Assembly (NCBI RefSeq): GCF_017875395.1
Contig: NZ_JAGGMO010000001.1
Location: 186,001 to 250,000, forward strand
Source: Methanococcus voltae
GTDB taxonomy: Archaea; AGJL01; Methanococci; Methanococcales; Methanococcaceae
Direction of reading: 5' to 3'
Length of the DNA stretch: 64,000 nt
The notes below the pieces were generated by a model, which made no database searches, was not told the DNA's origin, and was given only the letters and a program-made list of their open reading frames with translations. Made by a program: the position numbers and the translations under genes. This document shows positions 17,189-19,893 of this stretch, one piece after another; the first letter of the stretch is position 1; each line of letters opens with the position of its first letter.

Positions 17189-18613
17189 TTATTCCTGAGT
17201 TGATTCAGCTGTTGCTTCTGCTTTTTTAATCTTTTGGAAGTCTTTTGTTTCAGATACTACAACTTTCAAGAGTAATAATATACCAATTAAGTTAGGAATA
17301 GCCATTGCTCCGTTTAAAGTATCTGCGATATCCCATACAAGTTTTAAATCAGCTGTTGAACCCCAAATAACAACTAAAACGAAAATTATTCTGTAAATAT
17401 TTGCTATTTTTGAGCTACTTGCTAAATATTCTAAACATTTTTCACCGTAGTATGTCCAACCTAATATTGTTGTGTATGCGAAGAATGGCAATGCCATTGT
17501 TATAATCCATCCACTGTTTGGAAGTAAAGAGTTGAATGCAGCGATTGTAAGCTGTGCGCCCTCTAAACCACTTGTTAAAAGACCTGATTTTAATGTAGCT
17601 ATTGTTAATGCTAAACCGGTTATTGAACATATTATGATTGTATCGATAAATGTACCAGTCATTGAAATTAAACCCTGTCTTCCAGGGTGGTCTGTTTTAG
17701 CTGCTGCAGCGGCAATCGGAGCACTACCCAAACCTGCTTCATTTGAGAATACACCTCTTGCAATCCCGTATCTCATAACGGTACCAATTGCACCACCTGC
17801 AACTGCAGTTCCTGTGAATGCGTCACTGACTATGTAGGATATTGCAGGGATTATGTATTGTAAATTCAATAATAAAACTGCTGCACCAGCTATGAAGTAA
17901 AATACTGCCATAAATGGAACAATGTAGGATGTAACTCTACCAATAGACTTAATACCACCCATAGTTACAGCTGCAACTAAAATTGCAATCATTACTCCGA
18001 TTCCAAATCTACCGATAAGGTCTACAGGTATTACTGATGACAATACAGGTGATAACACTGTGGTTATTGCAGGTGATAATAATGGTGATAATACATCAAC
18101 TATTGAGTTAACCTGTGCTACGTTACCGATACCAAATGCTGCAAAAGCTCCGAAGAACGCAAATAAAACAGCTAACCATTTGATTCCCGCACCTTTTTCA
18201 ATATAGTACATTGGACCCCCTGCCATTTCTCCAGCATCATCTACAATCCTATATTTAACAGCTAAAACTGCTTCAGCGTATTTTGTAGCCATACCAAATA
18301 ATGCAGCAATCCACATCCAGAATATAGCACCAGGACCTCCGAATGTAAATGCAGTAGCAACCCCTACGATGTTACCTGTACCAATTGTAGCAGATAAAGC
18401 CGTAGTTAAAGCTTGGAATGGAGAAATATCCCCCTGTACTTTTTTATCAGATTTTTTAAACATTAATTTAAAAGCGTAAGGTAATTCCTTAAATTGATAA
18501 CCTTTTAAAAGAATTGTAAGAATTACACCAGTACCCACTAATAAAGCAAGCATGTAAGGTCCCCATACAATTCCGTTCAACTCGCCCATAAAGGACATAA
18601 AAACGTCTAACAT
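17189..18613 (-). CDS. agcS: alanine/glycine:cation symporter (AGCS family)
   Basis: This 474-residue, multi-helix membrane protein takes up alanine with sodium. The M. maripaludis AgcS is a known D/L-alanine and glycine carrier. AGCS signature stretches are present: FQALTTALSATIGTGNIVGV near residue 67, WMWIAALFGMATKYAEAVLA, and ARGVFSNEAGLGSAPIAAAA. The start follows GTGATATC. A long leader with two tandem hairpins and a predicted promoter lies upstream (18801-18912). A short acidic tail KKAEATAESTQE ends the protein. Confidence 0.95.
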   Translation of the reverse strand: MLDVFMSFMGELNGIVWGPYMLALLVGTGVILTILLKGYQFKELPYAFKLMFKKSDKKVQGDISPFQALTTALSATIGTGNIVGVATAFTFGGPGAIFWMWIAALFGMATKYAEAVLAVKYRIVDDAGEMAGGPMYYIEKGAGIKWLAVLFAFFGAFAAFGIGNVAQVNSIVDVLSPLLSPAITTVLSPVLSSVIPVDLIGRFGIGVMIAILVAAVTMGGIKSIGRVTSYIVPFMAVFYFIAGAAVLLLNLQYIIPAISYIVSDAFTGTAVAGGAIGTVMRYGIARGVFSNEAGLGSAPIAAAAAKTDHPGRQGLISMTGTFIDTIIICSITGLALTIATLKSGLLTSGLEGAQLTIAAFNSLLPNSGWIITMALPFFAYTTILGWTYYGEKCLEYLASSSKIANIYRIIFVLVVIWGSTADLKLVWDIADTLNGAMAIPNLIGILLLLKVVVSETKDFQKIKKAEATAESTQE

Positions 18614-18800
18614 GATATCACATCACTCCAACATAAAAAATATTTGTAATAACAAAATATAAATCAAAATAAACGAATATTTGGACATCAATATGTACAA
18701 ATACATACCAAAAATATATTGTATAAAACATTTATAGAAATAAATGAAATAAAGATATCAAATAATATCAAATAATAACAGAAATATTGTACGTATTTAT

Positions 18801-18868
18801 GTTCAAAACTCCACAATATTGAACACGCGATACTTGTAATAATGGTTAAGCTCCACAACATAACCATT
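18801..18868 (-). promoter_or_regulatory. tandem hairpins with a shared loop in the agcS leader
   Basis: Read on the minus strand, two hairpins occur in order: AATGGTTA-loop-TAACCATT (18868-18841) and GTTCAA-loop-TTGAAC (18824-18801, plus one T-A pair outside). Each loop is 12 nt: TGTTGTGGAGCT and TATTGTGGAGTT, identical at 10 of 12 positions. The stems share no sequence, so pairing is kept while sequence differs. They lie 188-255 bases before the agcS start and just after its predicted transcription start, so they would form in the mRNA leader. No known riboswitch class comes to mind. Confidence 0.55.
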
Positions 18869-18902
18869 TTCCATTTTATTAGTATATTATTAGTAATAAC
18901 TT

Positions 18903-18912
18903 ATTTTATATA
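18903..18912 (-). promoter_or_regulatory. predicted TATA box for agcS
   Basis: TATATAAAAT on the minus strand in context GAGGTATATAAAATAAG. A start about 25 bases downstream would be near 18880, twelve bases before the first hairpin. Confidence 0.45.
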
Positions 18913-18922
18913 CCTCAATACC

Positions 18923-18941
18923 CCCTATTAAATTAATAGGG
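18923..18941. terminator. CCCTATTA-AAT-TAATAGGG hairpin
   Basis: A perfect 8-bp stem with a 3-base loop, followed on plus by a T-rich stretch. It lies just upstream of the predicted agcS promoter. It may be a terminator for plus-strand transcription or a protein site; no upstream plus-strand gene is visible. Confidence 0.35.
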
Positions 18942-19174
18942 TTCATATATTTTTAATTTGTTTATTTAGATTTATATTTATCATATAATTATTAATTGTT
19001 AATAAATTAGTAAATAATTTGTTAGTTAACGTATTATTAATTTATTATTAAGTTATTATTGATTTAGTATTGATTTACTAAGTAGTATTTTAGTATTTAA
19101 CTATCTAATTTGTAATTATTTTTAAAATTTATTCCAACTCAATATGTAAATTTAAATCTCGATTAAATGACATA

Positions 19175-19220
19175 AGCAATTGAGTATGATAATGCCAGTA
19201 ATGGCAATATACGCCTTGCT
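19175..19220 (+). ncRNA. candidate structured RNA (nested 46-nt hairpin)
   Basis: Three nested stems can be read on plus: AGCAA/TTGCT (19175-19179 with 19216-19220), GTAT/ATAC (19184-19187 with 19209-19212), and TGCCA/TGGCA (19193-19197 with 19202-19206) closed by a GTAA loop of the stable GNRA type. Internal loops are TTGA/GCC and GATAA/AT. It is an island of higher GC content in the 1.3-kb gene-free region 18614-19893. No coding frame or known family explains it. No clear promoter was found. Confidence 0.4.
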
Positions 19221-19587
19221 GTACCTATTAAAAATATATAATATTTAATCATTATAAATCTACTTTTCAAGTTATATTATAAATCCTTTATATATGTTAT
19301 GATACGATTAAAAAAATTAGAACTTTTGGAAATTGCATAATATTTCGATAAAAACGTATTATGTTATAAAAAACGGTATTTTTAATATTTTAACTATCAA
19401 AATATATTAAAATTTAAAAAAAAATATTATTTAAATAATATATAATTATTAAATATGTTTGTATCTATTAATAGTGTATCAATGTATGTATCAATGAGAT
19501 TTTACAATTTAGAGTTGGAATAAATTTTAAAATCTGATTATTTCATTTTTTGTGGAGTTTGTATATTTAGTATAATAGTACTCTAAT

Positions 19588-19625
19588 TAACTAATTATTG
19601 GAATGATTGTTGGAGTGATTAGTTA
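19588..19625 (+). other. 8-bp stem with 22-nt loop, gene-free region
   Basis: TAACTAAT (19588-19595) pairs with ATTAGTTA (19618-19625). The loop contains GTTGGAG, and 30 bases upstream is an unpaired TTGTGGAGTTT (19550-19560) matching the loop of the agcS leader hairpins. The remaining parts of 18942-19893 show no gene. Confidence 0.3.
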
Positions 19626-19893
19626 TTATTTCCTACATTTGTGCCATATACATAGGTCGTAATGGTATATATTACTATTGAAATTTTTGGCATTGATTGA
19701 CGTAAAAATAGGAAATTTTTTAAAAATAGGGATATTTTTTTAATTATGTTGCGATATTATGTAACTATCTATTGCAAAAATTATATCATAATAGAGTCCT
19801 ATTAATCATAAGATATCTAAAAATAATAAGGATAATAATAAAAAATATTAAAAAAATGATACTAATACCAATAATATGCCTTAAAATAAAAAA

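Follow-up and report, generated by a model that had tools for sequence, protein, structure and literature searches.

A candidate small RNA gene with three seeds complementary to the twin-hairpin leader of agcS in Methanococcus voltae

Few pairs of a small RNA and its target are known in archaea. In bacteria, the CsrA/RsmA system relies on GGA motifs that recur in the loops of hairpins with variable stems as well as at the ribosome site, and it includes decoys of the CsrB type. CsrA is a bacterial protein family, and we know of no member from archaea.

The closest archaeal cases are sRNA154 and sRNA41 of Methanosarcina mazei, two small RNAs that act in trans by masking ribosome-binding sites (reviewed in PMC5867862). 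The plan of several seeds on one RNA is found in LhrC of Listeria, which has three C-rich seeds, located in loops and in a single-stranded stretch, that are aimed at the ribosome-binding site (PMC4132741). Another type of control is known for agcS of M. maripaludis (MMP1511), which has an NrpR operator (GGAAN6TTCC) and is responsive to the nitrogen source (PMC2723118). Our literature search found no small RNA-target pair reported for Methanococcus. Here we describe a locus of M. voltae whose sequence suggests that an RNA-pairing switch, so far undescribed, controls amino-acid uptake.

The locus lies in a stretch of 64,000 nucleotides (the window), in which agcS, the gene of a sodium/alanine symporter, occupies positions 17189..18613 of the minus strand (TIGR00835, 474 bits). 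A sequence-only reading of the window had claimed that the agcS leader contains two minus-strand hairpins with unrelated stems and 12-nt loops that agree at 10 positions, and we find them as described, both in the sequence and in the fold. Hairpin 1 (18868-18841) reads AATGGTTA-TGTTGTGGAGCT-TAACCATT, with the loop TGTTGTGGAGCT at 18860-18849, and hairpin 2 (18826-18799) reads (GT)GTTCAA-TATTGTGGAGTT-TTGAAC(AT), with the loop TATTGTGGAGTT at 18818-18807. From the 8-bp stem of the former to the 6-bp core of the latter there is a gap of 16 nt. While the loops are alike at 10/12 positions, the final six stem bases are alike at 1/6. Both hairpins are predicted by folding, with a GUGG apex above three inner pairs (R-Y, U.G and U-A) and a U.U mismatch in each; the two positions at which the loops differ form one compensated pair in this fold. 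The loops are predicted to be unpaired with a probability of 0.52-0.67, compared to 0.33-0.36 for the leader overall. The local folding z-score of the hairpin region is just -2.0, so that the folding energy alone is insufficient to prove the hairpins. We scanned both strands of 400 kb surrounding the window for hairpins with a 12-nt loop and a stem of at least 6 bp, and found about 3400. The agcS leader pair was the sole pair of neighbouring hairpins with loops alike at 10/12 positions or more that was not a simple repeat; the other such pairs were simple tandem repeats with identical stems. A TATA-like box, TATATAAAAT, was found by eye at 18903..18912 of the minus strand, which makes a transcription start some 12-16 nt ahead of hairpin 1 plausible.

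We compared seven genomes of the genus (G000 to G006), all of which have agcS. We take G000, G005 and G006 to be of the voltae type, and G001-G004 to be of the maripaludis type. The AgcS protein is 97% identical in G005 and 92% identical in G006. In the sister species G005, all 24 bases of the two loops are unchanged, whereas only 103 of 169 are kept in the linker and the downstream leader (p = 2e-5), that is, 7 in the 14-nt linker and 96/155 in the downstream leader. The arms of hairpin 1 are conserved in this genome as well, with one double change from G-C to A-U in stem 1, and in stem 2 one G.U has become A-U. In summary, the four hairpins of G000 and G005 have standard pairs in 44/44 pair cells, compared to 72% in shuffles. 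The TATA-like box is identical in G005 and was not found in G006. The latter, more distant genome largely conserves the loop of hairpin 2, of which it retains TATTGTGGAG alone, in an altered hairpin, and it has lost the loop of hairpin 1. The claim that the agcS leader contains a selected RNA structure is thus supported: the loops are kept, the stem changes are compensatory and the gene is indeed agcS. We also considered the hairpins as a DNA operator and rejected this candidate, since it is the arms that vary and the centre that stays constant, opposite to what a dimer site would show.

The same reading had named absence from related Methanococcus strains as grounds for abandoning the element. 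This turned out to be the case for the distant clade, as the hairpin motif is absent from the agcS leaders of G001-G004 (four other Methanococcus species), while in the nearest species the motif is present. In G001-G004, agcS has a different, shorter leader and lies downstream of an alanine racemase-like gene, as recognised by eye. A covariance model of the hairpins (R1), which had been proposed as a means of searching the leaders of agcS and other genes, gave no convincing further member in 36 Methanococcales genomes; it matched the agcS locus in G000 and G005 and otherwise produced weak matches at noise level. When the leader was compared by BLAST with 41 genomes, G005 was the only one to give more than AT-rich noise. 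Since the motif was found neither at other genes nor before agcS in the four species G001-G004, we regard the system as clade-specific rather than as a genus-wide riboswitch. In the Rfam search we found nothing above the gathering score except the SRP RNA and tRNAs, and only chance-level matches at 18500-19880, with neither a riboswitch nor a leader family.

The best outside match of R1 (G004:C1:202662, 28 bits, E 0.02) is a member of a multi-copy repeat family and was judged to be due to chance or convergence. This intergenic family of maripaludis-type genomes (G001, G002, G004) is about 230 nt long and was seen at L038:1330-1560, which is the region of the match, and in L060-L063, L065, L066, L068 and L069. 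Upstream, its members have a conserved promoter-like part; two hairpins, each with a G-rich loop, are predicted in them, their end is rich in T, and they have no match in Rfam. From their sequence they look like small RNA genes or a mobile repeat.

Next, we aligned the 1.3-kb region from the SRP RNA to agcS in G000, G005 and G006. The alignment contains a conserved non-coding block, X (19415..19654), which is a candidate small RNA gene, probably of the minus strand. X has the SRP RNA gene on one side and agcS on the other, and is located some 700-1000 nt upstream of the leader sites. It is carried by these three genomes only, two of which are close, and its identity to G000 is 232/240 in G005 and 200/240 in G006. 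A coding potential of X and of the block at 19240 was considered by eye and rejected, since either the reading frames are not conserved or most changes would alter the amino acid. Within X there are three putative seeds, all on the minus strand: seed 1, ATCACTCCAACA (19608..19619), directed against the ribosome site and kept at 12/12 positions in all three genomes; seed 2, AAACTCCACAA (19550..19560), directed against the hairpin loop and kept at 11/11 in all three; and seed 3, TTTTAAAATTTATTCCAACTC (19512..19532), directed against a distal leader site and kept at 20/21 in G005 and G006. The seeds are C-rich and UCCA is present in each of them (CACUCCAAC, ACUCCACAA and UUCCAACUC).

The partner sites are found on the minus strand of the agcS leader. 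With a threshold of at least 9 nt including at least three G or C, a comparison of X(+) with the leader yields exactly three matches, and these are collinear: the distal site GAGTTGGAATAAATTTTAAAA (19120..19140; 21 nt), TTGTGGAGTTT (11 nt), which is the loop of hairpin 2, and TGTTGGAGTGAT (18622..18633; 12 nt), which is the ribosome-binding site of agcS. In other words, X(-) is antisense to all three leader sites in antiparallel order, and the order of the sites in X and in the leader fits one antiparallel pairing. There was no comparable match between X and the leader in the opposite orientation. In 500 dinucleotide shuffles of X, a block that was examined after the leader was already known, none reached the best, the second or the third match. 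The matches are also nearly unique in the genomes. For example, TGTTGGAGTGAT occurs twice in G000 and in G005 (at the ribosome site and in X), once in G006 (in X) and not at all in G001-G004. Similarly, GAGTTGGAWTAA has exactly two occurrences in each of G000, G005 and G006, always in the leader and in X, and TTGTGGAGTTT has 2-3 occurrences per genome with X, two of them being those in the leader and in X in G000 and G005. Among 327 start regions (400 kb), agcS ranks first for exact complementarity to X and second for the duplex energy. In G006, one pair of the ribosome site is lost at one end and the other end has changed in both X and the leader; the pairing is shifted and still comprises about 16 pairs, including one G.U.

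These matches bear on the origin of X and on the role of the hairpins. One could argue that X arose when the agcS leader was duplicated in inverted orientation, and that this copy has decayed and has no function now; the mirror-image order of the three matches is what such an event would leave. We find this scarcely probable, because X is better conserved than the leader, because the stretches that it has in common with the leader are conserved best of all within X (in G006, 43/44 positions of the complementary stretches are conserved vs 157/196 in the remaining X, p = 0.0016), and because the spacing of the matches differs several-fold. Alternatively, the twin hairpins could be a self-contained cis element for a protein or a ligand, as conserved loops and compensated stems at the start of a leader would suggest, and the match to X could be incidental. 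However, the loop motif recurs in X alongside two other unique leader motifs, there are no copies at other genes and no match in Rfam, so that we consider this very improbable. The earlier idea of a stand-alone sensor is therefore disfavoured by the wider evidence, as exact complements of three leader sites in X point to RNA-RNA pairing. The proposed tie between GGAG in the loops and a ribosome site, on the other hand, agrees with our results, as the loops resemble the Shine-Dalgarno region of agcS.

Which strand of X would be transcribed? In the predicted fold of X(-) the seeds lie in open loops or single strands (mean unpaired probability 0.63-1.0), while only one of the three motifs is open in the fold of X(+), which favours a small RNA from the minus strand. 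The folding z-scores (-1.8 for minus, -1.2 for plus) do not separate the strands. By eye, a TATA-like stretch AATATATAC (19665..19673, minus strand, conserved in the three genomes) precedes X, and a run of nine T at 19423-19415 ends it on the minus strand; both fit a minus-strand transcript. It is the accessibility of the seeds, together with the box read by eye, that makes us prefer this strand. A promoter model learned on 273 upstream regions was discarded, since it converged to a non-TATA motif.

The opposite choice of strand would lead to a different mechanism. A plus-strand transcript of X would present its GGAG-type motifs in the order in which the leader has them and could act as a decoy for a shared protein or for the ribosome, much as CsrB does for CsrA. 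The twin GGA loops with free stems are typical of protein sites, the matches of X(+) and the leader do run in the same order, X(+) has a conserved TATA-like stretch of its own, read by eye at 19430-19447, and exposes the motif GAGTTGGA in an open loop of its predicted fold. Yet TTGTGGAG and TGTTGGAGTGA are mostly paired in this fold (unpaired 0.27 and 0.17), the three motifs differ, such that a single protein would need to recognise three sequences, and exact matches of 12 and 21 nt exceed what a protein site needs. We therefore regard the decoy as unlikely. The agcS sites do resemble CsrA/RsmA sites in their repeated GGA loops and variable stems; here, the motif is longer and exactly complementary to X.

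The reading that we prefer, and to which we give an even chance, is that X gives rise to a small RNA, which docks on the loops of the leader by means of C-rich seeds and covers the ribosome-binding site of agcS. We infer that X is transcribed from the minus strand (19654-19415) as a regulatory RNA with three exposed seeds and that it acts in trans with a repressive effect. In an antiparallel pairing, the distal site would be bound by seed 3 and the ribosome-binding site by seed 1, while seed 2 would pair with the GUGGAG loops of both hairpins over a short 8-11 bp. The hairpins would be duplicated docking loops that keep the target sequence open, which would explain why the leader has kept one loop in two hairpins while the stems change freely. 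Pairing of seed 1 would hide the ribosome site, so that repression is the natural prediction, and alanine uptake would be lowered. Judging from the gene, control by X is perhaps set by the supply of nitrogen or amino acids.

The same pairs could also form in cis, if X and the leader were parts of one long transcript, in which a long-range fold hides the ribosome site until a signal opens it and the hairpins belong to the switch. X and agcS are on the same strand and their sites are in mirror order, as a nested fold of this kind needs. On the other hand, X(-) ends with the run of nine T, the stretch between X and agcS contains two or more promoter-like blocks (19295-19233 and 18912), and a leader of more than 1 kb would be unusual; we consider the cis fold quite improbable.

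As a small RNA acting in trans, X would resemble sRNA154 and sRNA41: it is intergenic, and its loop would cover the ribosome site of a gene related to nitrogen or amino acids. Its complementarity to that site is exact over 12 nt and unique to the pair in G000 and G005, and its seeds are open, according to the prediction for X(-). The likeness is one of plan, and the two RNAs come from another archaeal order. X differs from them, and from the other known systems, in that the agcS mRNA would itself provide matching sites for docking, of which one is doubled as twin hairpins, and in that X lies near its target. With LhrC it shares several C-rich seeds on one RNA, again a similarity of plan for which we claim no homology; LhrC is bacterial and multi-copy with redundant seeds for one site, whereas the seeds of X have three different partner sites in one leader. 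Since the exact pairing sites are predicted and the genus is genetically tractable, tests by compensatory mutations are straightforward.

Finally, we compared the locus with the NrpR control of the same gene in M. maripaludis, which depends on a DNA operator. We found GGAAN6TTCC before agcS in G001 (L009:1367), G004 (L010:1359) and G003 (L011:2933). It is absent from the SRP-agcS region of G000, G005 and G006, even with one mismatch. From these sequences, a swap of regulators between sister clades, NrpR operator in one and X in the other, is possible, and the locus may be a case in which the same gene is controlled through a repressor operator in one clade and through an RNA circuit in the sister clade. 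We offer tentatively, leaning somewhat against it, the wider view that, where agcS lacks the NrpR operator, its control has passed to a clade-specific archaeal small RNA, and that the three seeds of this RNA and the matching, partly duplicated mRNA sites evolved as one matched pair.

Other conserved elements are found between the SRP RNA and agcS. One is a distal promoter-like block on the minus strand (19233..19295), perhaps the older promoter of agcS, which also occurs in the agcS leaders of G001, G002 and G004. Between the SRP RNA and X, at 19735-19812 of the minus strand, there are two more conserved non-coding patches, one AATAGGACTCTATTATRAYATAA-like and one ATCGCAACATAATTAAAAAAATA-like, which may serve to regulate X or a transcript of the plus strand. 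The block at 19233-19295 contains TTATAATGATTAAATA, is common to agcS of most of the genus and recurs at the start of an operon with ferredoxin-like and oxoacid:ferredoxin oxidoreductase-like genes (G000:C6:65208-65267, G005:C4:94033 and G006:C3:66503); it is possibly a common transcription-factor site.
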